Source: Tachypleus tridentatus | Taxonomy: Eukaryota > Arthropoda > Merostomata > Xiphosura > Limulidae | DNA length: 64,000 bases | Direction of reading: 5' to 3' | Assembly (NCBI RefSeq): GCF_004210375.1 | Contig: NC_134837.1 | Span: 21,399,586-21,463,585, forward strand | Shown here: one piece after another, positions 2,661 to 62,500 of the stretch | Layout: every line of letters begins with the position of its first letter | Numbering within the stretch: position 1 is the stretch's first letter | Program-made: the position numbers and the translations under genes | The notes under the pieces: model-generated | Told to the model about the DNA's origin: nothing | The model's database searches: none | What the model saw: the letters and a program-made list of their open reading frames with translations, nothing else

Positions 2661-3070
2661 TGTTTACACTTGTAATACTTTATTACAACAAGATAATACT
2701 TTGCCATTCTTTTCATTTTATAGGGCTAAGTCTTCAATGCTATTTCAGAATGTAAACTTCAACATTGTGGTGATGCTTCGCTAATCCATGTTGACAACTA
2801 AATGGGCCAGGATTAAAATACTTATAATGCTTTAGGATTCCAATATACTTGTACCAAGGGATTGTCATAATGATTCTGCTTGAATGAACATGCTGATCAA
2901 ATTTAAGGTTTGAAATAACAGTCATGGTACACCATGCAGTGTCTTAACTATACATAAACAAGCTAGTATATGGTATTGGTATATGCTGGAAGAAATTTAT
3001 TTCATAGCATTCCAGAAATAAACTTTTACAAAAACAGTGTTTAACACTATATATATTAAGTTTTGTTATC

Positions 3071-4090
3071 ATGAAACGGCCCAAAAGGCCACCAGAGCAT
3101 GGAGTTCGCATGAAAGCTTTACGTGATACTGATTGGACTCTGCGACGAATAGCTGCAGACTTGAAATGTTCCCCAAACATTATCAAGTACACCTTATGTC
3201 GTGAGATTGAGACAGGTAAATTTAAAAATAGGAAAGGAAGAGGCAAAACACCTGAACTCAATAATACTGATGTTAAGTATCCATGTTTATGCAGCTTTCG
3301 GGACAGAAGGAAGACTGTCACTGATCTCAAGCATGAGGTAATCGATTATGTACCTTATGATAGAAAACTGTCCAAATCTATAGCATCAATGAGACTCAAC
3401 AAAATGGAATATTTTAAAAAAAACCTCCAGTTCTCCAAATATTGTCAAGAAACTGAAATCTGTTAAAAAGTACGAAAACTGGACTGTTGGTGATTAGAAC
3501 AAAGTGAATGAATGTGTAAGTCTAACTTTGAAATATTTGATCCAAATCGTAGGTTCTACGTCCGGTGGAAGGAAAGTAAAAGACATTTCTGTATATAGAA
3601 CCTACCATGAAACACAGGAGAGGCAGTGTAATGAGTTAGGATTGTTTATATGCTGAGGCAACAGGTGATATTTGCGAAACAGATGGAATAATGAACCAGC
3701 GCAAGTACCATCAGATATTGATCCGTCATATTATACCCAGTGAATTGTGTATTATTGGTAAAGGATTATTCCACTAAGAAGATAATGACCCTCAAACATT
3801 CACACAACCTGTGCAGAAATTAGTTAACTAAAACAGAAGCTAGTGGAGTAATTCAATTGATGCAATGGCCTTCATAGAATCCCGATACCAATCCAATAGG
3901 TCAGGCAGTTAATAGATCAAAAACTTGACAAATCAAAAGCTACATACAAAGAAACTTTATGACAATGTGTCAGAGACATCTGGAGTAAAATCCCAAAGTG
4001 CTCTTTGGTACATATGTTGCAACAATGTCTGAAAAACTGTTCCAGTTATTAAAGCGAAAGAGGGCACATAAAATATTAAATACTTACTGA
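3071..4090 (+). pseudogene. Tc1-like transposase remnant
   Basis: The first about 130 codons are open (MKRPKRPPEHGVRMKALRDT onward) and form the helix-turn-helix DNA-binding part of a Tc1/mariner transposase, including GKTPELNNTDVKY and DRRKTVTDLKHE. Afterwards the reading breaks into shifted frames. Still recognisable are NWTVGD, MNQRKYHQILIRHIIPSELC, EDNDP and the C-terminal CVRDIWSKIPKCSL. The DDE catalytic region therefore carries several stops and frameshifts, and the copy is inactive. I did not find convincing terminal inverted repeats. Confidence 0.85.
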
Positions 4091-14677: not shown

Positions 14678-17600
14678 AGTTGTTCATCTAACCAAGAAAG
14701 GAGAGACAACAGAACCTCTGACAACGATGACAGAACTCTAACATTTATTCATCTGAAGTATGCTCTTTTTGAAATACTTTTCTAAACTTGATTTAGAACC
14801 TGTCGAAAGTTTGCGATTTGCATCTGTTACTTTGTATGTCTATCTTTTGTTTGTGTTGTATGGTTTACACCAGTGTTTATGCTGGTAATATATGAATAAT
14901 ATTATAACAAAACTGAAAAACATGAAATACGTTCAGTAGCTAGACAGTTTGTTTCAGTCGTGTAGTTTTATCAAAAATAATTTGGCGAAGTTTAAATTTT
15001 ACGCGTTTTAATATAATTCTCTTTTGAAATTTTGCCCTTTTGTACTGTATTTCATAATTAAGACTGTAGTGAATAACTTAATGCTTTTTACGCTTCCGGT
15101 TAAGATACATTTCCTGGAAATTTTGTAATTAATGTCTTTTTATCGTTTTGCAAAAATTAGAAAGAATAAAAACGTGTTTTGAAGGCTGAATTGGTATGTC
15201 ATATTTCTGAAAACTTAAAATTAAATAAGGCAGTTATCGTAAAGAGCTGGCCAGAAGCTTATTAAAAATAACGCGTATTAATGTGATTCTAGTTTCAATG
15301 GTAATTTCAGATATAGTTTTCTTTATCATGTAAGTTTGGTAAACGACAATGAAGACCTTTAATTTTTTTAAACTTCGAGTTCATTATTATAATGTAGCGT
15401 ACGACATGATAGTTCCAGCCCAGGCGAAGTTGAAAACAATGGTACAGCACACAAACCTAGAGATGATTCCGAAACTAACACGTCATTACAGAAAGATGAA
15501 CCATCATCCGAAACGTGTACAACGACGGTTAATGGTAAACGCTGCAACACCAATGAAAAAACAGTCTGGCCCAATCCCTTCACTCGAAACGGACGTTACG
15601 TCAACATTGAAGCAGTTAATTGGTCTAATCTTCGTTACAGAAACCGTTGGGGTTCTCTTTTCCTCGGCGTGTTTGTTGGCCTGGTATTCGTAGGAATTAC
15701 AGTGGCTGTTGTTGGAGTAGCTATTCTTACAGGTTTAGTTTCATGTTGAATATAGTTCAAATAAATTGAAGAGTAGATAAATTAACATGTATTTTAATAT
15801 TCTATAGTCATTTGTTTAACCTTACTTAGTCATTTCTGAACCTTTCACGTCTTTATCTTAACATTACCAACTTTGCAAGTTACTGTTTACCGTCTTGGAC
15901 ATTCATTACATTACCATCGTAACATTATTTACTTTCCACACATTAATATGAAATACTTTTTCCCAAAGAAGGTATATTAAACGCCGAATTAAGTATATAG
16001 TAATTTTTGTATGAGATTGAAAGACATTTTCGATGGAAAATAGAGAAATGGTCTGTTTTGATTTAAATAACCTTGTTAGCCTGAAGATAACCTAAAGTCA
16101 AAACCTTTTTCTGTAGTTTATTATAATAAAAGAGAATACAATATCCTAAGGACTTTTTTTTTTCTCAAGTTAAATTTTGTGTATTTCCATAAACAAAAAC
16201 TAGTAGTGTAGAAGAAAACCATCAATATCTTTTATAACCGTTCATTAAACCTCCATCAAAGGTTTTTCAAACAAAATGTTTCATATTGATCTTGAAGCAT
16301 ATTTAACATTTATTATTTTTATGAGTGAATATTTTATTTGCCATTTTTGATGCAAAAATACAACTATGTAATATTAATTTAACAATTTTAGGTCTCCAAA
16401 AGGATTTCAATTACTTGTGTAAAAAAACGTCTGTTTATCGTTTTCAAGGAGTCCACTTATCTGGTAGGCCAAATGAACTTTGAACACTTGTAAAGTGTTT
16501 TTTATTAAAACGTTAATCAATCGTTTTAAGCGTTCAGTATTACTTTTGTAACAGGTTAAAATATACGTAATTTGTACTTTTTTTCTTTTGTAGTGAGTTT
16601 TAAGATTCTTAAACTTCTATTGTTACATTTTACATAACTAGTAACAAGTAAGCTTACTTCGTATTATTAAAAAAAATTAAAACTATAAAGTCAACCCTAT
16701 TTATAACTGTTAAATATGATTAAACGTTACGATAACGAAGCTTTATTCCAATGCTAATTTATAAAAAGTTTTACTTACAAAAGATTTAATATCTAGTTTA
16801 TAAAGTACCCTTTTCAGTTCGGGTATGCGTTTTTCTACATAATAATAAATGTAATTTGTATTTTCTGAAAGATTTCTCAAACAGTCAATTAAAGAAATGG
16901 ATGTTGTTTACTGGAAGTGTGATTTTTCAAACAAATGGAACTACACCTTGTTTACAAGGAAATAAGCAATCGGACACAAAGCAACTCTACAATGAGTCGT
17001 CTTTTACAGCTAAGGTAATTTAGTTAAGTTTTTAAGCTTTATGGCATATTTTACGTTGGCTCTTAAGTGTTATCTGTTTTTTAAAAATGAACCGTCTACG
17101 AATGAATCCAAGTAACTGGAAAAAAGATGCAAAATTTATGCAAACAAAAGCGCAGACTTTAGATAAAGTAGTGAAATTTTACAAATAAAAAATTGTTTAG
17201 GTATGTGATTAAAAACAAACAAATTGTCCACCAAAAGAATAAAGGATGTGGTACCTAACACGTCACAAGAGGCTATTATAAGACCTGTAATTTGTACTAT
17301 TTTTCCATTAAATACGTTTATTAATATGTTGTCTTTACTATTTGTACAGGGTGGCCCGTAAGTCCCTACCCATCTATATGTTATTATGTTACATTCAATT
17401 ACGCATGTATTATAAATTTGTTTTTTTTTTCAGAGAAATATGGCCAATGTAAGCCCATTTACACTTGAAGAACATGGCGTCGCATAATATTATGCAGCGA
17501 GAATGAGAGGACAGCACACAGATACACTGGATACATAAGATAATGCATGGATAGGGACTTACGGGCCACCCTATACTTGTCGCCTACTGTTGTTATAGCA

Positions 17601-20600
17601 TTTTACTGTACTTGAGAAACATATAAAATATTTTTAATACTATGTACGTGTCAAGCTTAACTTCAAGATTTTATTCCGCCTTCTAAACTTTAAGTTGGAA
17701 CTTTTTATGTTGTTTTTTTTTTTTTCAGATCGAACAAGCCTTCCGAAATTCCACGATAAGATCAAAATTTGTAGCATTCTCTTTGGGCAAAATAGGGTGA
17801 GTGAATCATGAATTCAGTCTTTGCTATATATCTCTTGTGTCGTGCAGTACTTTCTGTTTTGAATTCATCCGAATCTTTTGACAAACGAGTTGAGGAGATA
17901 TAATAGTCTGGTGCTTTGCTTTGTCACACGTACATAAGTTTTAGCTTTGTTGTGATGGGGCAATAAATAAACCGAATTACCTGTACATATACTCTTGATT
18001 GCTATTTAAACTTCATGTTATTTATTTTTAAACTTGGCGATTCGGACAGTGTATACTGTACAACCAAACTGAAATGCTATATACATATATTACATTCAAA
18101 TAGTTTTTTTATTGTTAATATGCAATGGGGGGGATGTTCAATAGTAAGTTAATATATATTAAGAGACTAAATTCACAAAAATGCATTCATAATCACCAGG
18201 AATTATAAAAGTATGCAGAATGTTTCAATTGTTAAAAACACTTAACGGAAACAACTTATTAGATTTATGAAGACCCAGATATAGTTGAGTAGTTATCTTA
18301 TCTGCTTCTACTGCAAAATCGGCCCGGTATGGCCAGGTGGGTTAAGGTATTCGACTTGTAATATGAAGGTCACGGGTTCGAATCCCCGTCGCACCAAACG
18401 ACCTTTCAGCCGTGGGGGCGTCATAATGTCACTACCCATCCCCCTATTCATTGGTAAAAGAGTAGCCCAACAGTTGGCGGTGGGTGGTGATGTCTAGCTG
18501 CCTTTCCTCTAGTCTTGCACTACTAAATTAGGGACGGCTAACGCAGATAGCCCTCGTGTAGCTTGGCGCGCAATTCAAAAACAATATAAAGAGAACGTGA
18601 GTAAAATGCATGATGGGTAATTTAAGTCTCTTAAACGGAAATAATAAGGGGGGGGGGAGACACACCTGCCGTTTAACACTAACCAGAGGCAACTGACAAA
18701 GCGAAGGCCGATTTCATGAATGACGCATTAAGAACTATAAAAAGAATATCCTTCTTATACAGAAACGTTAATATGCTTTCTACTTGCCTTAATGACGTAA
18801 TTGTAGGAGCGTTGTTGATAACGTAATAAGTGTTTAAAAATAAGGAACAAAATACTGTTTAGGATTCCAAAAAATGTCATAAAGATGAGCACAGGAAAGA
18901 AAATAAATCGATCAAGAATTCAACATCAACTATCGTTTAACTTGTACTGTAAAGAAAGTAACTGAAAACGACAGGCCCGCTGATAAAACAAAGGAAAACT
19001 AAATTTATTAAAAGACAAATTGAAGAAACGTCTAAAAGCATAGTATTCCAATGAAAATGGCGGTTGTTATAGAGCGAAGTTACAACAATCGTAAGAACAC
19101 AAAGGATATCGCAATATTAAACATTTCCTATCTGAACAAATCTTTGTGAAGATTTTAATGTTTTTTGCGCAAGAGGATGGTGTTACATAACTTTTCCCGA
19201 TTAATTTCGAAATATCACTCTGTCTACGTAATTACAAACAATGTCGCATGTAATTACCATATTTACCATTTCATTTCAACTTTACATCGGCTGTGGTTTT
19301 CATATTACTTGCTTATTTAAATTAATTTTATTGTAATATATTCAAACCTCTAGCTAGGCACAGCCACGTGGTTAGGGCGCTTGTAATTTGAGAGTTGCGG
19401 GTTCGAATCCCCGTCGCACCAAACGCGTTCGCCCTTTCAGCCGTGAGGAGCATATAATGTTACTGTCAGTCCCACTACTCGTTGGTAAAATAGTATCCTA
19501 AGAGTTGGCGGTGAATGGTGATGTCTAGCTGCCTTCCCTCTAGTCTTACACTGCTAAATTAGGGACGGTTAGTGCAAGATAACCCTCGTGGAGCTTTGTG
19601 CGAAATTAAAAAAACAAACAAACCTCTGTACAGCATGAGAAGCCAGCTATGATCAAAGTAAAAAGTGTGAACAAACAAACATGATGCCAAAAGTAAAACA
19701 AAAAATATTTACAGAAGAATCTTTTCTGGAAGTATTTTGAAAAGAAAAATAATTCTTTTATAAAATGGAAAGTATACTAACATTGTACAGCCATTGTTTA
19801 ACGACCGATCATTCGAGAATCAACCGTAATCAATATACGACTGTATTATCAGGGATATATTAATAAAGAACTCGAACCTAGTATCCAACCTACCATTACA
19901 TATATGATTGAATGAATGCTGTTGAACACTAGTTTTACTAATCTCAACAGATACTATTACAAGTTTTCCAACTTGTAGAAACTATAATCTGGAAAATAAT
20001 TGAATCATTACTTTTGAAAAGTTAGGTTCAATTTGTTTTATAACTTATGGCTCGTGACGTGCTGCTACAAAAACGCGTTCCGCATTCAGAGGGCGTGAAG
20101 TGCGCTATTAAGGGAGAATCTAATATCTGTCATTTGAGCAGAAAGGAGCCGCTCGAGGGTTAGCGGTGAAAGCTGTTGACTAGCTAGCTTCCCCGTCAGT
20201 TCAAATTTGGAGATGACTATACGAAATGGCCCCTAGTGTTGGTATGTACTATGAAATAAAAGAATATAAAGTCTATACAAACGCATTAATTACATATGAA
20301 AAGGGGTTTAGGTAAGTTACTATAGGTTTATGGATCATTTGTTTAAGAATGAGAGAAGCTTGAAACAAGGTCGAACAATGTTGAAAATTTATATGTGATA
20401 TAAATCAGATTGAAAGAAACATGAGCACACTTTGCTTAGAAATGTACAAAGTAATAGCTCAATACCTTTAAACTCTAATTTGTATGATGTACGTTTTTTA
20501 TTAATCATTAAAAGTTTAATGTACAAAAAGTCTGACAATATATGGCAAATAAGTATCTTACAACTTCTAACGTAATGTTTATCGGTAGATACAAATAAAC

Positions 20601-22393
20601 ATATCCATATAACCAAGACTGGTGGAAAGAGAATACCCTATGGGCCCAGTACCCTAATTTTCACTAAGAATTCTCCTTCACAATTAAGATCAAACTGTTC
20701 TTTCCATAATAATCAATAAACCGTAATACGCAGTAAATTTGTCACTTTAAGGGAATTTACTTTCTGTTACGAAATAAAAGCGCTTAAGTTTCGAAACAAA
20801 TATGCGATGATTATGAATGCGATATCTGTAGTGTGTTTTAGTACGTAAGTGTTTTTTTTACTAATACTAAGCGTATTAATAAAATAAACTTTAAATTAGA
20901 TTTTTATGAAAAATGTCGAATAACGATTTGTCAATAGGGAAGAAACGTGTTTTAAAAATCGCTCTCTGTTTAACTACAAATTGTGGATCCATCCTTTATT
21001 TCTTAGTGTTGGAGAACGGGGATTTAGTGGATCATTCCTAGGGTTTATTGTACTGTCTGAAGTGTTACTTATTTTAATTTTCCTTGTTGCTCTTTTGCTT
21101 TCTTATTACGTACAAAATAAAACTGTAAGCTATTTGTGTTCTGCCCACCACGGATATCTAAACCTAATTTTTAGCATATTTTTATACATTAAATATAGAG
21201 ACTTGCATATTTACATTTCTGTAAAGTTTCGTTAAGTGTTTTCAGTAGTAACCAGGGTATGTTGGGAAAGTGTGGTGTTGCTAATATTATCAGTATATCT
21301 GCAGTGAGGATGTAAACCGTTTAATAAATTTATCACTTGTAATAAATCTGCAGTTTCGTGATTTCCATGTTCCAGAAGTTTCACAAGTGTATGTAACTGC
21401 TTTAATAACGTGTATCCAAGAAAAACATTTGCGTATATTTACACAAACCGTGGGAACGCCTCATTATTGACAAGTTAAGAAATTTTTAACCTGTTGTGGA
21501 AAGAAACTGAGCAGAAGTTGGTATATGTAGAGCCTAAGTCTCTTTTATGTTTTGTATTCACTCAAGAGTTTGTCTTTATTTAATTTTAGATTTAATATTC
21601 GTTATTACAAATTGATGGGATTACAAAACTTTTTTTTTTTTTGAGAGAGAGAGAAACTTCGAAAGAGTTTTTTTTTTTTGTTTTTAATTTCGCGCAAAGC
21701 TACTCGAGGGCTATCTGCGCTAGCCGTCCCTAATTTAGCAGTGTAAGACTAAAGGGAATGTAGTTATTCATCACCACCCACCACCAACGCTTGGGCTACT
21801 CTTTTACCAACGAATAGTGGGATTGATCCTCACATTATAACGCCCCACGACTGAAAGGGCCGACGGGGATTCAACCCTCGGATTACATTTTACATTTTCT
21901 TTCTATATCATCTCGTATGTATGTGTAACATGTGTGTTTATAAACTATATTTACTTTGCAAAATATATTTTTGCAACGGGGATTCAAAACAGGTTATTTT
22001 TTGGGCATACATTCATTGATCTTAAAGTACTTTCCTGCTTTATTTTTATTATTCTCTGATCATTTATTTTTAAACTTGCATCAGATAAACAACTCTCAGA
22101 CACGCTCACAGTTAGAACTCTTTTATTAATAGTCATAAACTGTGATCCTTTCTTGAGTTATTTGTTTCGTCATCTGAAATTTGATTTTCTTTTACCATAT
22201 TTTAATTAGTTGTGAAGATGGCTCTACAGTTGCAGCAGATTATGTAACCGTCTGGCAGTCTGCGAGTGATGGCACATCAATATCGTTTACTAACATAACC
22301 ACCATTCTTCTCAATATTACCGTGACGGACGAATATCCTCTCTTCCAAAAAGTTGTTTTCACTAATGTGTTTAATATTAAATCTCCAGTTTAG
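14678..22393 (+). CDS. Type II single-pass membrane protein with one SEA domain (5' incomplete)
   Basis: Exons: A 14678-14757, B 15419-15732, C 16872-17014, D 17729-17796, E 22210-22393 (stop TAG). Phases match at every junction (2, 1, 0, 2), giving 789 nt or about 262 aa, with the N-terminal start missing upstream. Exon B encodes a polar Ser/Thr-rich segment, then RYRNRWG and about 25 hydrophobic residues (FLGVFVGLVFVGITVAVVG), so a type II anchor is likely. Exons C-E encode a SEA domain: start LFTGSVIF, helix KIEQAFRNSTIRSKFVAFSL, then CEDGSTVAADYVTVWQ. The GST triplet sits where SEA domains self-cleave between G and S. At least five N-glycosylation sequons (NGT, NES, NST, NIT, NIT) fit an extracellular location. 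Family knowledge: SEA plus a type II anchor occurs in TMPRSS-type proteases and in glycosylated surface proteins. No protease domain follows, and a poly(A) signal lies 38 nt after the stop. Function is unknown. The exon A and B acceptors are the weakest calls. Confidence 0.72.
17347..17573. mobile_element. 227-bp non-autonomous DNA transposon with 27-bp inverted repeats
   Basis: Termini YAGGGTGGCCCGTAAGTCCC TAYCCAT are near-perfect inverted repeats (two differences), flanked on both sides by TA (17345-17346 and 17574-17575), as in Tc1/mariner-type insertion. The interior holds a short start-like reading MANVSPFTLEEHGVA then a stop, possibly the beginning of a lost transposase. Confidence 0.9.
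18321..18583 (+). mobile_element. SINE family 1
   Basis: Head GGCCCGGTATGGCCAGGTGG, box B GGGTTCGAATCCCC, body and tail complete. It lies in the last intron of the SEA-domain gene. Confidence 0.92.
19352..19618 (+). mobile_element. SINE family 1 with target-site duplication
   Basis: Head diverged (GGCACAGCCACGTGGTTAG), box B intact. 9-bp direct repeat CAAACCTCT at 19343-19351 and 19619-19627. It lies in the last intron of the SEA-domain gene. Confidence 0.9.
20060..20240 (+). mobile_element. Diverged SINE, third subfamily
   Basis: Contains GGTTAGCGGTGAAAGCTGTT, GACTAGCTAGCTTCCCCGTC and AGTTCAAATTTGGAGA in place of the family 1 body. The relic at 27310-27420 (minus) shares these words, so the two define a separate variant. 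Confidence 0.55.
21668..21889 (-). mobile_element. SINE family 1, head truncated
   Basis: Tail and body are complete, but the tRNA head is lost after a shortened CGACGGGGATTCAACCCTCG. Located in the last intron of the SEA-domain gene. Confidence 0.9.
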
Positions 22394-22436
22394 TTGTTAA
22401 CTACAATTTTTCATTTTTCTAATAATTTCCAATAAA
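22394..22436 (+). terminator. 3' end of SEA-domain gene with poly(A) signal
   Basis: AATAAA at 22431-22436 lies 38 nt after the TAG at 22391-22393, supporting gene termination directly after the SEA domain. Confidence 0.5.
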
Positions 22437-33600: not shown

Positions 33601-36600
33601 CGACCGACTTTAAATTCTTTTCCCCGGAAACTAGTACCCAATTAGCTAATGAAAGTAAACTTCTGTACTTTATTATTTAATGAATCTAATCATTTCTACC
33701 TTGGCAGAATTTTTCATTTTGAACCATTTGATCCTGAGTTCGAAAAGAACCTAGAGTAAAACGTAATCAGGGTTGTTCAGAAATTTTGTTTATTTTCATC
33801 TAGTTCAAGACCTAGAGATAACCTGATTAGTTAATGACAATAACTTTACTTAATGGTGATATATTAACTCAAAATTCCGCAGGGAAGAGGTCAGGTAACA
33901 AGCAAAGGCAAATCAAAACCACAAGACTTCGAGGTGAAGCCTTGGGGAAAATCACGATTTGTGATTTGTGGATGGAGATTAAGTGATCCAAATACTCTCA
34001 ATTTATTGTTGAACGAATACAGGAATATCTCGAGAAAATGACTAATCGTTTATTTATTTCTCAATAATAGGAAGATATCATTGTTGATATGCAAAGCACT
34101 GGTAATATTCTGGACCCAGAATATAACTTGGCTTATTACCGTGAAGATATTGGAATAAACGCCCATCACTGGCACTGGCATATAGTATATCCTGCCACCT
34201 GGCGGCCAGAAGTGATAGGCAAGGTTAAGGACAGGAAAGGAGAGCTGTTCTACTACATGCATCAGCAAATGTGTGCTAGGTTGGTAACTGGTCTGCTTTT
34301 ACTACTGTACTTATCAGATATTGTACATAATAAGATTTAACAAAAGGTAATTTGTTTACATTTTTATGTGATTGGCAGTTTAAATCTCTATAAATATACT
34401 ACTAACATCAAACAGCTAGAAAATTAGGAACTGTAAAATGAACAAGGATGTAGTAATAAATGCTCCTCACAGGAATGAGCTTCAATTTATAGAAAACAGT
34501 TAAATTTGAGAGTTTAACATTTGTGAAAGGAATTTTTATTTTCGTAGCTTCTCAAACATTTCAGTTCTCTAAAGATGTATTTACTAATAATATTACGGCT
34601 CTACGAGTAAGATTGTCAAGGGATTTTGTGGCAAGGTAAGAAACAAACAATTGAACCGTATATCCAAAATAGGATCCAAACCATTTCTACTTATAATTTA
34701 AAACTACTGAGGATTTCACATGAACTTTATACAGTACCACTATGTTATCGTTCTTCCATCATGTGTGACAAAGTGTTTGTTTGTATATAATTTGATCATG
34801 TAAAATTGTGAAGTACAGCAGTATACTCCGTTTACGTTTAATAAAATTCAATATGAAATCCGCATGCAACACAAATAAATTTTCTTTTAGCTGGAGGGAC
34901 ACTGAAGCTAAAATTCCTACAATGGGCGCAATAGATAGTCTAACGTAGTTTTATTTTAAAACTAGCAAGTAACCTCAAGTATAAGTATTCCCAACAAGTT
35001 AGGTTACAATTATTACTACTTCCACTTTAATAAACACAAAAGAAATTGTTCAGCATTACAAGATTCTGTAGAGATCTCGTAAACACATTTTTCACAAAAG
35101 ATGTTTCTCATTCGGCATTTTAAACACGAAATTATTTCAATTCTGTGGGAAGTTCGACAATGTTCGTGAGACAGATTTGGGATTTGGAAATTTCACAGAA
35201 TGCCACAACCTTTAAAAACTTTCATGTTTACACTTTGATATCTTTGGACATTCTTTAGAGTAATAGTAAACATCTTTAGTGTATTAATTACAGTTGGTTT
35301 TACCAAACGTTAGTTTAAATTATTGTTATATATAGGTAACATTAGCTAAGTTTTTATATTAAATTACTAGTTAGTTTAGTTTTCTTTGTCATAATAGCCT
35401 CATACATTATTACTTCAAGGGTTCGTTTCACAGGATAACTATGTCAGATTGGTGATAAAAGTTTTTAGCCATACCACGTATTAAGTTTAACTTTTTTTTC
35501 TGATTACATTTAACTTTGATATATTAAAATGGTCTTGCAAGCTATTATTGATTTGCTATTTTGTGTCTTAATAAACATTGTTTTTTTATTTATTTGCCGT
35601 GGAAAAGCTAATATCCAAACTAACTTTGTTTAAACTAAAACATATGGGTTTGTCACAGCTAAGATAGCTTCTGACGTTATATACTTAAGATGTCGTAATG
35701 AATTTCATTTGGTAAAGTGTGGTGTTAAAAAACGAGGTCGATATTACAAACAATATACACCTACGACTACAGTTCAATATATGAACTAGTGTTTTTGCGT
35801 TCCCCATCCAAGGTTTGGCACTTTATTTATTGTTGCATTCATGAATAGTATTGGTTTTACTAGTTAGTATATCGAATGTAATTAGTTTTGTTTTAATTTG
35901 TTGTTTAGTGTTATACTTCCACTATCACTATAAAGATTATTTTACACTGTTAGTTTACAATTTGTATTTAGAACTATATCAAGTAAGCTAGCTGAACCCT
36001 ATATGACATTGTTAGGTTTACAATCGAAAATATCATTAACAGCGAGGTACCCATCTGATGGAACAATACATTTTAAACTTTATAAATAAAAGCATAGTAA
36101 GAAACCCTACAGATAATCAGGTTAATTGTATCAGGTTAATTTCGCTCTAAGTATGTAGCTTACTCTGATCGAAAGTTGTTATTATATTATCTACTGTTGA
36201 GACGGAGGGTGTCGAGGGTTTTTGAAATGATGTGGATTCTATTATTTTATGTAGTAAAATTTCAATAAATGATATGATACACTGACATCTTAATGAAACA
36301 TCTTTTTCATCCTCCATTTAGGTATGACTGTGAAAGGTTGTCTAATGGCATGCCCAGGATGGAGCCCTTCCACAATTTTCACGATACTCTTGAGGGCTAC
36401 TCCTCCCACCTAAGTTCATCCATCAATGGCTTACCCTATCCCTCACGGCCTGATGGCATGACTTTGCAGGATTTGAAAGAAGTCTCTATTCAAGAACTGG
36501 AGCGTTGGAGAGACAGAATCCTTGATGCTATCCACATAGGCCACTTGGAAGACGAAAATGGATCACACGTGCCATTGGATGAAACACGAGGTATTGATGT

Positions 36601-39600
36601 TTTAGGGGCCATAGTTGAAGCTAGCTATGAATCAGTCAACCAAGCATTCTATGGTAGCATCCATAACTGGGGTCACGTAATCACAGCCAGGGTCCAAGAT
36701 CCCGATGGTCGTTACCACGTAAGTTTTTAATATTCTTTCCTGTTTAGCGGATCCAAATTGTTCATATTTCCACTTTTAAGAAATGTGTCTGTCAACATGG
36801 AAGGTTTAACTTTTACACGAAATATTATCATTTTTGTTATTTTTCTTAAAGTTTGATAATCACATCAAGGTTAAATATCTATTAGACTTTACGCATTGTT
36901 CATACTGTTTATGTTTTCATCAGAAGTGTTTAAAAACGTTGTGATAAGCCAAAAGCTACAATTGTTTGATAATTACTTTTATACTTATAGAATGTTTAAA
37001 ATGTCAAAAATATTCTCATAATGATGAAGTTATCATTATAATTGAAACGATTAAACCGGCACTCCGAAGTTAGCCTGGAAAGGGGTTGAAATGTTAACTA
37101 CATCTTCTAAGTTAGGCTAAATTTAAGAAGAAGGGATTAAACTATTTATTTATGGAAACCAAAAGTTTTATAAAATGTAGAGAATGTACCAAATTGCTAA
37201 GTAATAAGAGCATACAGTAGCATGTAGCTGTAGGATCTATTCATAATAATATGAACATCAAGTATAATATATTTGTACACACATAAGAAACCATATTCAA
37301 TTAAATTAATGGGATAGGATAATTAAACAATAACTTCCTCACATATTCTGTTTTTATATTAAACGTTTCTGTCTGAAGTTGAACCCAGGTGTGATGAGCG
37401 ACACTGCTACCTCCCTCAGAGACCCCATCTTCTACCGGTGGCATAGGTTTATTGATAATATGTTCCAGGATTATAAAGAGACTTTGCCACATTACAACCA
37501 TTCTGACGTAAGTACATTTTAACAGTTTTCGAAATCTTGGATTTCAGTTTCAACGCTAGGTTAACATAATAAATATCATTAGTTCTGATGTTTCATAAAG
37601 GACTGAATTATAGCAGTATGACATAAAAAATACTTATTTGTAGTTTTAAAATAACTAATTCTTTAATTGTGATTCACGAATTACTATAGTTCCGGATTTC
37701 TTTTCATTTTACGCTGTAGCTCGAATTCCCGGGTATTGAAATAACCAAGGTCCTTGTGAAAGCTAAACACATAAACAACATCGACACTTTCAAGAGCTAT
37801 TCATTGTTGGATCTCTCACATGCTTACGAATTTGGCAGAAGTGGAGCCGTCAAGGTAATGGTGGAAACTTTTACCTCATGGAATTTCGTTAAATGTCTGG
37901 TTTTACTTCTGTTCAGAGCTCGAATCAATGAGTTCAACACATCTAATTCTTTTACAACAGCTGAAAATAATCCATGGTTTTAATAAAGTTAATAAGCATC
38001 AAATAAGCCTTATAAGAAATAAGCAGAAGTGTCAGAATAATTGTTTTTGTTACTTACTTTGGTTATGTATAATTTATTTTCATTGCTAAAGCCTGTAGTA
38101 GGTAGTTCACAATAATACATAATACGACTAACTATAGGTAATTTACGATCATTTTACAAAGATTAGTTCGGATTTCTTACTTTTAGGCTGGTAGACTTAT
38201 TTATTATGACTGTTGAACAACTGATAGGCCTAAAGTAGCGACATTAGGCTTAGCATCAAAGACTTATTTCTACATTTGGTATTTTTAGCTTTCCCAAATA
38301 CCGCTATTTTAACAAATGAACTTACTGAAAATTGGTAATTTTTGTAATATTCAATGTATAGCGTATATCTTACAAATTATAATATCACTAGAACGTTTAT
38401 GTATGCAGCATACAATGTCTTGTATTAAAATTTAATATGTAACATAACGTGAATTAGAACATTCGGTAATTATAGGCGTTACCTAGTGTCAACATACCAC
38501 TGATGATGGATCAATCTAAGTTCGGGACGATTTATGCAAATGATTACCATAACTATGAAAGTAAATCCTACTGTTCAGTTAACAGTAACTGCATAAAGAC
38601 AAGGTTCTGCAGACCAGTCTTCCTCCCTCTAACTAGCGGTTTTAAGTTGTGTAATTCGTAATGACGAGAAACTCATTTGAAGTAGAAATATTTCTCAAGA
38701 TGTCTTCACATGGCCTAGTAATGTCGAAACGTTGTTCTTTACTTTATTTTAATAAAGTTTTAATACCCATACTAGTCGTTTTGAGATAAATAAGTTATGT
38801 TATGTTACGCCAGAAACTAGGGGTCTTACAACTTGGTTATTTATTATTTTAACGACAGAAAGTACGGTTCAGATTGAAATGACCAATATTACGTATTTTA
38901 ATTTGGCTAAAAATAATTATTTTATTTTTAAAATATTTTCAGTAAACTAAAGTTATGCACAGTTATTAAATTTTAACCTTCAAACTAAAGCGACGTAAAT
39001 AGCAAACCATATGTAGCCAAAACATTATTTCTGCAAAAGTTAAGAATTAGCTTATTTCTAAAAGTTATAGTGTAACGCTGAAATCTGGCAAAGAATTAAA
39101 CATCAATAAACCTAAGATATGTTATAAAAATCACGTAAGTTGTACATGTTTAATTTTCTTTTGCATATTTTTATTAATTTTTCCTTTTCAGATTCCAACT
39201 CATAGGTGTGTGAGAATATCTATTTTTGTCTCTCAAAATCACTGCTTAAGATTACTTTCGTTCAATAGTGGTATTTAGAAAAATCTGCCATTGCGAAAAT
39301 AAGTATAATAAAATTTAGGCCTATCAGTATATTTCTATTCACACAGTATCACGTCCATTTTGAAATTACTAAAGATAGTTCATCTCTCAAATCTAATATG
39401 AATGAATAATTTGTGTGTTAAAGGTTAGATTATTTTGTCATTATCTCCAGACAGTTTTTTTTACAGTTACTTTGAATTTCGCGCAAAGTACACGAAGATA
39501 GCCTACACGAAGGCTATCTGCGTTAGCCATCCCTAATTTGCAGTGTAGGACTAGAGAGAAGGCAGGTAGTCGACCAGACAACCTGGTTGACATAAAATGT

Positions 39601-56366: not shown

Positions 56367-57869
56367 TTACCTGTGGGTTATCTTTTCTTCCTCTCCTTGA
56401 TTTTCAGACTTAGTAATATACATTGGGTCTTCAACTGAGGTCACAGCGCTCGCTGCTTCAGGTGTCAAAGTAGTAGGCGAATCTATTTCATCTTCTACAG
56501 CGTCTTCTAAACTTTCGTCATTCCAAAGGTCTCTTATAACATCATCTTGTACATCACAAAAATAACTGATAAACTGAGGCTCTATTGTCCAGTTTGACGC
56601 TACAGAGGGGTCTAGCATTAATCGCTTTTTTTTTTTACTGATACCAGCTGTATCAGTATAAAGTCTCAAATGAAGCCCTTCTGAAGTAGCATATAATACT
56701 GGAGTTGTAAAACTGACTTCCTTGTCTTTAACCTTTTTGGCTTCTGTAATACTTTTCTTTTTTGAGTTTCGTTTCTTACGGTCAACCTGCCTTGGAGACA
56801 AATCATTCACAGAAGTAGTTTTGCAACAACAAAACAGTGACAAAAACTTCTGTCTGAAATCCTTCCTCTGCCAGAATATGATCAATGGAAAAGCTAAAGG
56901 AAAGATGAAGCGCATCCAAGTGAATGCAGTGTCCAAGTTCGATGTCTGCTCTTCGAGTAGACCAGTTACATTTAGGGATTGTGGAGGCAATTTAGTGTTG
57001 TTATAAGACTGATGCAGCTGACTTCTCTGCTTCACTACGATGTAGGGAACCTCGAGCAACAAGTAAAACAAGATTATCAGAGCTACTAGCTTCGTACTAG
57101 CCCATTCTCCCCACAAAAATGTTTCTTGGAAAAAGAGTTCGGTGTAGGTGAGATCTTGTCGTTTTTTCCTCTTTTCTTGGCGCTCTTTAAATATCCTTAA
57201 TCCAAGATATCCTACGCAAAGGAGGCTTAACAAAACTGGGAAACAGTAACAGATAACCGTAAGTGCAATACCGTATTGAAACCACTCATTGTCTGCCATA
57301 CTACATGCATATCGTGCAGGAAACACGCGCACTTCGATTAGTTTCATTAAAAAAGGTAAGCCGACCAAGGCACCCATCAACCATAGTATCACCATAGCAA
57401 CAATTTGTTTCGGTATCGTTAGTAAACGTTTAAATGCTAGTGGGCTCCATATTGCTGCCCAGCGTTCGATTGACATTAAAGTGATCCCGAAAGTGAATTC
57501 TAATGTTGTAAGTTGTACAAAAAAGGTATTTATAGAGCACATTGCCGAGCCTAAAGTCCAAGAGTTTCTTGTAATATAATACAAAGCTAACATCATGTTA
57601 CATAGACACTCCACAAGACAAGCTATCGCTAAATTTAAAATAATAATATTAAAAGCTAGTCTCCTCAGACTAAAGCTAGAAAAATATGTCACAATAACAA
57701 ATATATTAGCTATGAAAGCAAATATGCACATCAAAGCCAGAATAATTGATACTACCAATGGCGTGTTGTTACTTTCAAGACGAGAATGTGGTACTGTTGC
57801 ATTCGAAATCTTGATACGAAATGTAATGTTTGCTGATAATAGAGACGTATCGTCAGTTTCGTTGTCCAT
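56367..57869 (-). CDS. Class A (rhodopsin-like) orphan G protein-coupled receptor, single exon
   Basis: 500-aa seven-helix receptor in the plasma membrane; ligand unknown. The N-terminus carries sequons N3, N15 and N23 and no signal peptide. Approximate helices: TM1 37-62 (conserved N55), TM2 71-98, TM3 108-138, TM4 154-174, TM5 197-223 (P211), TM6 258-280 (P275), TM7 313-333 (P328). The disulfide pair would be C111 and C189. Several signature motifs differ from the family: NLAIAC in TM2 has Cys where Asp2.50 is usual, DRY is ERW (135-137), CWxP is LEVP, and NPxxY is FPLII. Helix 8 (RKDFRQKF) ends in CCCK, a likely palmitoylation site. The long tail (351-500) is Lys-rich then acidic. The last codons read into CACAG|GTAACT, a good splice donor, so the shown stop may be intronic and the true tail longer. 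The start has an A at -3 (AAAATGG). I do not recognise the subfamily. Confidence 0.85.
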   Translation of the reverse strand: MDNETDDTSLLSANITFRIKISNATVPHSRLESNNTPLVVSIILALMCIFAFIANIFVIVTYFSSFSLRRLAFNIIILNLAIACLVECLCNMMLALYYITRNSWTLGSAMCSINTFFVQLTTLEFTFGITLMSIERWAAIWSPLAFKRLLTIPKQIVAMVILWLMGALVGLPFLMKLIEVRVFPARYACSMADNEWFQYGIALTVICYCFPVLLSLLCVGYLGLRIFKERQEKRKKRQDLTYTELFFQETFLWGEWASTKLVALIILFYLLLEVPYIVVKQRSQLHQSYNNTKLPPQSLNVTGLLEEQTSNLDTAFTWMRFIFPLAFPLIIFWQRKDFRQKFLSLFCCCKTTSVNDLSPRQVDRKKRNSKKKSITEAKKVKDKEVSFTTPVLYATSEGLHLRLYTDTAGISKKKKRLMLDPSVASNWTIEPQFISYFCDVQDDVIRDLWNDESLEDAVEDEIDSPTTLTPEAASAVTSVEDPMYITKSENQGEEEKITHR

Positions 57870-58488
57870 TTTCTTTTCTTGTTATCTCACGTGCAGAGTA
57901 TATATCGGAATGTTTAACTTCTCTAACAAATTACCTATTTTAAATCAATTTAATTTTTAAGGAAATTATCAGTCAGTAAACTTCTCTTCTAAACGAATTG
58001 TAGTCCTATGCCTAGTTCTGTTACTTCACCGTCTGTTGGCAAAAACATTAAGCACGTAACTAAGTATCCAAGTTAAAATGAAGCAATCAATATTGTACGT
58101 ACACTTCACACGGTCTAGAGAAAAACTCGGATTTGTTATGAAAGCGTTAGAAATGCTAGTAAATGTAAATTTAAAATCAATATCCTAAATAATATTTTTA
58201 TTTTTCTAATTGACTTTCATTTAAACAGTCAACTTGAAGATAATACAACGACTACTTATTACGTCACTAGTCATGAAATTACGTTTTTGACGTCTTAACT
58301 AGTATCGTTTTTAATTTTAGCTTCAGATAAAACAAAACCTCAGATAAACTTTACTAAAACCTGCAAATAAATATCATCTAGATCTCATAAGTGATGTATA
58401 GAAACTGTATATATTAATACTTCCACTTCAGTAGTCACATTCATCACATCCAAGATAGCAAGCCTCTACAAAATTCATTGAAAGGATT

Positions 58489-59779: not shown

Positions 59780-62500
59780 CTTAAACGTAGTCCTGGATTA
59801 CCCAATAGGCAGACTAAGCGCGTTTTAGGGCACCATCAAACCAGGGACACCAAAAGAAAGATTTTTTTTTTATAATCTAATATTTCAAAGTAAGAATGTA
59901 AATAGTCATCATGGGAAAAATCAAAACTTTGTTAGATTTCTTTACATTCTTCCCCCATTTTTGTTCTCTTTATATTACTTCACCTCACCTAAACCAGGTC
60001 TACATTGATCAGTATAAACTGTGTGAAGTTTTATGTGTCTTTTCAACGTACGTTGTGTACAATTCTGTAATTTAGCACCACTTGTGTCAGTGGAATTATG
60101 TCACTCATGTATGTGGGAGTATGGAATTGGTAAAAGTAATAAATGTCATCTATGACTGTACATATATGTTAAAAATGGTTTTTGTTGTGTAATTTGCTGT
60201 TGTTGTTTTTTCCATATAACTGAGACAACAGGCAGGATGAAACGTAGCCAACTGAGTGGTGTACAGAAAATGTAAGCCTATGGAAGAAAAGAAACAGAAC
60301 AGTAGCAAAATTATTCAAAAACTTCCAAAGCTGACATTATATTTCGAACCGAATCCATCAGAAGCAACGCCTCCTCTCAGTTGCACAGACATTGTTCTAA
60401 AGCCTGTGGATGTTTTATAGATTAACCCTTCTGGTGATGAAACAAACACCATTGCAGAACATGTAGATGTATCAAAGACTACAACTAATCAACCTACTCC
60501 TGGTAATAAAACAGACATTGTTTCAGAAGGTGTGGATGTGTCAGAGACTGAACCTGCTCGTGCTGTGCATAGAAGGAGAAAAAAATCCTGATTGTTAACA
60601 TCACATTGGGCCATTTGAGAAATCATGTCGGTCTTTTAACAATGACGAACAAATAAATATTTTTCTGTCTGAAATCGAATGGTGAGAAAAACACCCGATA
60701 ATGGCTACTGTGTTCACCATCAACAGGGTCTGTGTATTGTTTTGTTTGCAAACGTTTTGCACCTAAACCTTCAACATCACTATTTCCTACAGCAGATGGA
60801 TTTAGTGACACTGACAGAATACTGTTTTAATTGAAAAACACAAAAATAGCACTATTTACAGATATTCCTTGCTGACATATTTAAATCGAAGACAGGGCTT
60901 TGAAATGGCACAAATATTAGGAAAATAAATTAAAGGGAGCGTGAATACTGGCAACATGTCTTGCAGCGTGTTGTAGCTGTTATTCAGACATTAGCTGAAC
61001 GTTGTCTGCCTTTCCGGAGATGAAATAGGATAACTGAATCATTGTAAATGGAAATTTATTGGGATTGTAAGAGCTTGTAACTCAGCTTTACCCACTTTTA
61101 GCAGGCCACATCTCAAAATATAGGGATGTTGGCAAAGATAACCTATCATACTTATCCAAGACAGCATATGATTAGTTCTTTGGTCTAACGAATGGCAAAG
61201 TTCGTTCAGCTATTGCAGATGAAATAAGTACTGCTGAATATTCCTATCGACTCTACACCTGTTATTTTACACGTTGATCAATTGAGTATTATACTAAGAT
61301 ATGTGTCTCCCACAGATGGAAAGATAGTTGAACAATTTATAACATTCCTTAAATCGAAAAGCCACACTGGTGAAAAATGGAAGATCAAGTACTGCATTAT
61401 CTGTGCCAAGTTTGCGAAATAGATTTTTCAGAGTGCAGGAGTCATTCTTATGACAATGCTGCCAACACGTCATAGTATTATAAAGGAGTGCAACAAAATA
61501 TTTTAGGACAGAACAAATATGTCACATAGTATTATAAAGGAGTGCAGCAAAATATTTTCGGACAGAACAAATATGTCATATTCATACCATGTGCTGCACA
61601 CTCAATCTTGTTGACTGCAGTGCTGTTGATTGTTATACAGTAGCAGTGAGTTGTTTCTCAACAATTCCAGTTACTTTATACATATTTCTCTGCCTCAACA
61701 CACTGATGGGCAGATCTTAAACATATCTGGGCAATGATCATGAATTGAAATCTCTTTCTGATACTCGCTGGGAGGCACATACTATGGCAACAAAGACAAT
61801 TCTGGACCCCTACCCAAAGATTGTGGATGTAGTAGAAAGTATAGGCGAAGACCAATCAAAAAATAGAGAAACTGTATAAGAGGCAGAAAAACATTGCAAA
61901 CAAGGTGAAAGAACTAGAATTTGTATTTATGTTGACCATGTGGAATGGAGTTTTACAACGCTCTCACAGCACAAGTCAAGCCCTCCAAGAAAAGAAATTG
62001 GATTTGAAAGCACGTGCAGATCTCATTAGCATACAACTTACAGAGTTTGAGGGATGATTTTGAAAGATCTGAAAACATATCAAGATATATTTTACCTGAT
62101 ACTGAAGTCCGGTCGTGGAAACGAATCAGGAAAAAAACAAGCAAATGATGACAGTGCACCATTGAATCCTGGAGACAAATTCCTCGTATCTACTTACTAC
62201 ACTATAACTGATACACTCGAGGTTCATATGAATTGGAGAGGTGAAGTGTACAAAGAAGTATCAAGTAGATTGTTTTATCTAAATGATATGGACTTATATG
62301 ATGAACAATATTCACAAGATTCCCAAAAGCTAGTTGACTCATACCCTGTTGACCTCACATGAATCTCTGTAAAGAACAACAAGAGTTACACTTGTATATG
62401 TTTTATGAAACAGGAAAAACGGAATTCAGTCACACTGACCTTCATAATACCCTAGTGAAAGACAGGATTCAATAAGTATTTACATTACAACGTGAACAAC
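59780..62500 (+). pseudogene. hAT transposon remnant, ZMYM1-type transposase
   Basis: The 5' non-coding part is near 59790-59850 (ACCCAATAGGCAGACTAAGC). From 60236 the transposase is visible in shifting frames: MKRSQLSGVQKM, GPFEKSCRSFNNDEQINIF, KDNLSYLSKTAYD, NGKVRSAIADEISTAEYS, STPVILHVDQLSIILRYVSP, DGKIVEQFITFLKSKSHTGE, SYDNAAN, FIPCAAHS, SLSDTRWEAH, TILDPYPKIVD, NKVKELEFVFMLTMWN. This is the hAT domain order found in ZMYM1-like proteins. Stops and frameshifts are frequent, so it is dead. An open C-terminal piece lies at 62054-62362. A 54-bp tandem duplication lies at 61471-61578. Confidence 0.85.
61471..61578. repeat. 54-bp tandem duplication inside the hAT remnant
   Basis: CATAGTATTATAAAGGAGTG at 61471 recurs at 61525 with the rest of the 54-bp unit (two or three differences). 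Confidence 0.92.

Follow-up and report, generated by a model that had tools for sequence, protein, structure and literature searches.

A candidate type II membrane protein with a divergent SEA-like domain in the genome of Tachypleus tridentatus

Can a membrane protein consist, on its outer side, of a SEA domain and almost nothing else? SEA domains have mostly been studied as stems or breakable joints of large proteins. The question is raised here by five short forward-strand exons, A to E, in a 64,000-nucleotide stretch of the genome of the xiphosuran Tachypleus tridentatus (contig NC_134837.1, C13:21399586-21463585, in an assembly of 2.17 Gb and 205 contigs), hereafter the window. An earlier note, made from the letters of this DNA, had interpreted the exons as encoding a type II membrane protein with a single SEA domain at its end. 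That remains the best reading, and it gains support from the position of an intron, but the domain scores below the cut-off of its family profile. On balance we think it probable that the locus encodes a single-copy, single-pass type II membrane protein, with a predicted cytosolic Ser/Thr-rich tail, one helix, and a single divergent SEA domain as its outer part. If this is true, a near-bare SEA protein would offer a simple system for learning what a SEA domain does alone.

Probable SEA identity of the outer part

The strongest support for reading the outer part as a SEA domain is that the intron between exons C and D sits in a slot that it shares with further SEA genes of this genome. This intron has phase 0 and falls between positions 36 and 37 of the SEA profile, with residue 41 of the outer part aligned to position 29. 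At L008 and L011 the SEA exon starts at profile position 37, in phase 0 and directly behind an acceptor; at L010 and L013 it stops at position 36, likewise in phase 0, with a GT donor in each case. The SEA genes L008/L050, L011/L052 and L010/L051 have the same phase-0 slot as the candidate. We estimate the chance that one of two introns falls in a given slot at <1%, counting about 106 positions and three phases. These other SEA genes score 22–27 bits against the profile, compared with 14.7 for the candidate, and the case shows that intron position within a genome can back a divergent domain that scores below its family cut-off.

Exon D itself follows the same register. Anchored without gaps at the boundary between positions 36 and 37, it obtains a score of 40 with each of L008 and L011, with the runner-up segment at 31, and ranks first among 4832 acceptor-anchored open segments from both strands of the window. 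Its anchored score was reached by 24 of 100,000 shuffles. Both the D/E intron and the exon end at L001 have phase 2 and fall close to where the second strand ends, but their positions do not clearly coincide, and we make no claim from them.

Profile and structure searches point the same way at lower strength. The 131-residue outer part has a sole Pfam match, to SEA (PF01390; E 0.035, 14.7 bits, cut-off 26.4), which extends to residue 106. Two of six trimmed versions of the outer part keep this match in the same register. In the PDB, SEA domains from type II membrane proteases take the first two places (8vis, E 0.18; 2e7v, E 0.2).

Several results weigh against the SEA assignment. The score lies below the curated Pfam cut-off, and the significant PF01390 match that the earlier note had looked for in the joined translation did not appear, as the 264-residue join gave no Pfam match at all. 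A 190-residue piece including the helix and four of the six trimmed versions had no SEA match either. By its name, the PDB match in third place (E 0.9) is no SEA protein. Free local alignment of exons C, D and E to the other SEA exons of the genome stays at shuffle level, and the anchored alignment of exon D was noticed by eye before it was tested, with the exon borders fixed beforehand. Chance joins can do as well: 26 decoys from the window (35 joins less nine that held exon C or E, wholly or partly) produced four hits at E 0.022–0.036, all to unrelated families. None of these decoys matched SEA in the Pfam scan. Hemocyanin_N was matched by three of the 27 scanned joins (best E 9.8e-7), presumably through the real hemocyanin exon of the window. 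Because decoys match at similar E, the SEA score alone proves nothing; it carries weight because SEA had been named beforehand and because the PDB search ranked SEA domains first and second.

Gene model and rival explanations

Inspection of frames and borders found GT-AG borders and consistent phases at all joins from A to E, ending in TAG. Coordinates, borders, phases, stop codon, AATAAA and a single hydrophobic helix were all borne out as the earlier note had given them (Table 1). Its placement of exon B holds in part: the best acceptor is 15398 (3.6 bits), not 15419 (1.9 bits) or 15413 (-1.6 bits), and the frame is kept in all three, giving joined products of 269, 262 or 264 residues respectively. 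Its statement that the exons individually lack a long open frame fails for exon B, which is open over 118 residues from stop to stop. No Met precedes the membrane helix in the joined translation of exons A–E, and the model therefore lacks one or more 5' exons, including the one with the start codon. Nine upstream pieces run from an ATG to a donor of score ≥6 in a compatible phase; none is compelling and none can be selected.

Table 1 Features of the candidate gene, in window coordinates.
Feature	Position	Strand	Remarks
Exon A	14678..14757	+	Enters in phase 0; rich in Ser/Thr and charged residues; acceptor 9.8 bits
Exon B	15398..15732	+	Remainder of the N-side stretch and the membrane helix; frame-keeping alternative starts at 15413 and 15419
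Membrane helix WGSLFLGVFVGLVFVGITVAVVGVAILT	15648..15731	+	Follows Arg-rich NLRYRNR; Kyte-Doolittle 19-mer 2.83
Exon C	16872..17014	+	Enters in phase 1, leaves in phase 0; start of outer part and first half of SEA-like domain
End of exon C	17014	+	SEA profile position 36
Exon D	17729..17796	+	SEA-like domain, end of first helix and second strand
Exon E	22210..22393	+	Second half of SEA-like domain and stop codon TAG
Gly75-Ser76 codons (outer-part numbering)	22220..22225	+	Turn where some SEA domains self-cut; aligned with the Gly-Ser of TMPRSS11D
AATAAA, possible poly(A) signal	22431..22436	+	38 nucleotides beyond the last base of the stop codon

Splice sites were ranked among the 518 acceptors and 658 donors between 14.0 and 24.5 kb. 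Exon D has the first-ranked acceptor and the second-ranked donor, exon A the fifth acceptor and the 55th donor, and the donor of exon C ranks 17th. The codon score of exon B (15413–15732) is coding-like and was reached by none of 12 overlapping open noncoding pieces. Thus exon B is supported as coding by its codon score, and exon D is supported by its splice sites together with the anchored SEA match. Other measures tell against the model as a whole. The donor of exon B (164th), the acceptor of C (113th) and the acceptor of E (168th) are mediocre, and the codon scores of A, C, D and E are reached by 15%, 33%, 27% and 14% of noncoding open pieces. Moreover, the donor of exon B is the start of 4793 chains that stay in frame and contain no more than three exons, under a cut-off that excludes the proposed acceptor of exon E, and phase consistency alone is therefore weak evidence.

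These last measures are what would be expected if the gene model were wrong, with some exons real and others (A, the acceptor of B, C or E) misplaced, or if the join arose by chance. We consider this unlikely, given the splice sites and SEA register of exon D and the fact that the SEA match crosses both the C/D and the D/E junctions and vanishes once the part from exon C is removed. The model might instead be right and its domain wrong, such that a true type II membrane protein carries some other small fold on its outer side. The sub-threshold score, the comparable scores that chance yields for unrelated families, and the shuffle-level pairwise alignments to SEA exons of the genome would all fit such a fold, which we nonetheless regard as quite unlikely in view of the shared phase-0 intron slot, the anchored match of exon D, and PDB matches that are SEA domains of type II proteases.

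A further explanation is that the gene is what remains of a type II SEA-protease gene after loss of the protease exons, perhaps now in decay, or that its transcripts run past exon E into further domains. A remnant would fit the fact that no paralogue or orthologue could be compared; we judge this explanation very unlikely because the frames are intact across 262–269 residues and end in a stop followed by AATAAA. The earlier note's claim that the gene ends without a protease or EGF module agrees with the stop after the SEA-like domain and with a search of the six frames of the window, where no TAAHC, GDSGG (trypsin-type) or EGF pattern was found, although a motif split by an intron would escape. 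A lone LDLa-pattern match (61574–61693, +) lies in a hydrophobic frame far downstream and a lone IVGG-pattern match (21773–21784, -) lies inside a repeat; both are read as chance. Hemocyanin and G-protein-coupled receptor (GPCR) genes lie downstream of the SEA gene in the window, and together with the absence of trypsin-type motifs this makes continuation into a protease unlikely.

Protein anatomy and relation to known SEA proteins

Returning to the type II SEA protein that we favor, the modeled product has one helix with an Arg-rich flank on its N-side, its N-terminal exon lying outside the model. The N-side stretch comprises 110 residues, 23% of them Ser or Thr, and ends in RYRNR ahead of the helix. 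The outer part (131 residues, 24% Ser and Thr) is nearly all SEA-like domain, has two Cys, and lacks long Ser/Thr-rich repeats. It contains five N-glycosylation sequons, against a mean of 2.06 in shuffled sequences, 2.8% of which reach five. The Gly-Ser of its GSTVA motif aligns with DGSGV of TMPRSS11D. The earlier note's description of a heavily glycosylated Ser/Thr-rich segment holds only in part: the N-side stretch precedes the helix, which in a type II topology places it in the cytosol, and any claim of glycosylation is therefore limited to the outer part, which with its five sequons could be glycosylated.

We infer that the gene is expressed and that its product would serve as a surface glycoprotein of type II topology. 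Its Ser/Thr-rich tail, 110 residues or longer, would lie in the cytosol and lead into a Gly-rich membrane helix, and the outer part would be one divergent, N-glycosylated SEA domain finishing at the stop codon. This domain would fold extracellularly, possibly held by a Cys27-Cys72 disulfide. Gly75-Ser76 would lie in the self-cutting turn, and if cut, a C-terminal piece of 56 residues would stay on non-covalently. Self-cleavage at Gly75-Ser76, suggested by analogy with other SEA domains, is possible but rather doubtful.

The closest known systems are the type II serine proteases with a SEA stem (the HAT/DESC group, e.g., TMPRSS11D; matriptase; enteropeptidase), in which a single helix likewise leads into a SEA-like domain. 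The SEA sequences of the top PDB matches come from TMPRSS11D, which has Gly-Ser at the same turn. The candidate differs in having no protease domain, its stop coming after the SEA-like domain. In one study, matriptase cuts itself at Gly149-Ser150 within SEA and the halves remain joined non-covalently (PMC5567652); in another, release of the TMPRSS11D protease leaves the SEA-containing N-terminal part on the cell (PMC12065894). By analogy, the candidate resembles a protease stem without its protease, that is, a surface glycoprotein that is perhaps self-cut. Its domain class is known, and its architecture is probably a variant within that class. One could go further and propose a minimal self-cleaving SEA protein, a stem for nothing, where SEA is the working outer part, a cut at Gly75-Ser76 lets the 56-residue glycopeptide be pulled by force or released, and the Ser/Thr-rich tail reports the event; we give this proposal little credence.

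Membrane mucins offer a second comparison. They have long outer Ser/Thr-rich repeats and a SEA domain ahead of the helix, and the extracellular SEA domain of MUC1 can self-cut at Gly-Ser, to be compared with Gly75-Ser76 of the candidate. In contrast to these mucins, the Ser/Thr-rich stretch on the N-side of the candidate is on the opposite side of the helix. Two related mucin-like SEA genes occur elsewhere in this genome, L050 (C9:23601000-23610900) and L052 (C19:50870000-50879900), and both have long Ser/Thr-rich open frames upstream, unlike the candidate. Their SEA exons each have an equal-score match on the opposite strand about 0.8–0.9 Mb away (L009 and L012). The earlier note had stated that SEA domains usually belong to mosaic proteins, and this is true of at least one further SEA gene in the genome. 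By eye, an exon located about 0.6 kb beyond the SEA exon at L011 reads like a calcium-binding EGF domain; the EGF pattern scan of L052 did not pick it up. Around L010, no trypsin motif was found in 9.9 kb of the + strand.

Genomic context, copy number, and repeats

Genome searches with the joined protein or its outer part found no second copy, with the limit that these were made exon by exon and a divergent paralogue could escape. The helix region gave one match only (34%, E 9.45). A DNA-level search, with 40 of 22,129 candidates scored, recovered the locus along with matches to its intron repeats. An ohnologue was sought by gene order, starting from two relatives of the window's GPCR, one of 59% on C7 and one of 49% on C8. 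The 30 kb near the C7 relative gave only noise-level exon matches (best E 0.09), and on C7 no hemocyanin relative lies closer than 19 Mb, so the idea of conserved gene order was abandoned.

Two neighbors have near-identical copies on this contig, located some 0.6 Mb upstream: the hemocyanin exon at 36278–36730 (97%, C13:20827353-20827743) and the GPCR gene at 56367–57881 (100%, C13:20855408-20856895). These second copies reflect either a recent duplication or an assembly artefact. Unlike them, the SEA gene was found once. The hemocyanin encoded by an exon in the window has a subunit type II (1lla) as its best solved relative. On another contig, exons at C11:9.02 Mb cover almost the whole family model of Coagulin (positions 1–70 and 75–174), a horseshoe-crab protein.

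The introns of the candidate gene contain repeats. In the C/D intron, an element of about 230 nucleotides (17344–17576) has 30-nucleotide inverted ends that are 93% complementary and many genome copies 87–94% identical; it looks like a miniature inverted-repeat transposable element. An interspersed repeat occurs three times in the D/E intron (18314–18590, 19366–19623 and, inverted, 21660–21880), and the text GGTTCGAATCCCCGTCGCACCA, seen by eye, suggests a tRNA-derived short interspersed nuclear element. ARAGORN detected no tRNA in the window, and Rfam gave no match there at the gathering score. Upstream of the gene, at 3008–3466, a 152-residue open frame resembles, by eye, the N-terminal part of a Tc1/mariner-type transposase.
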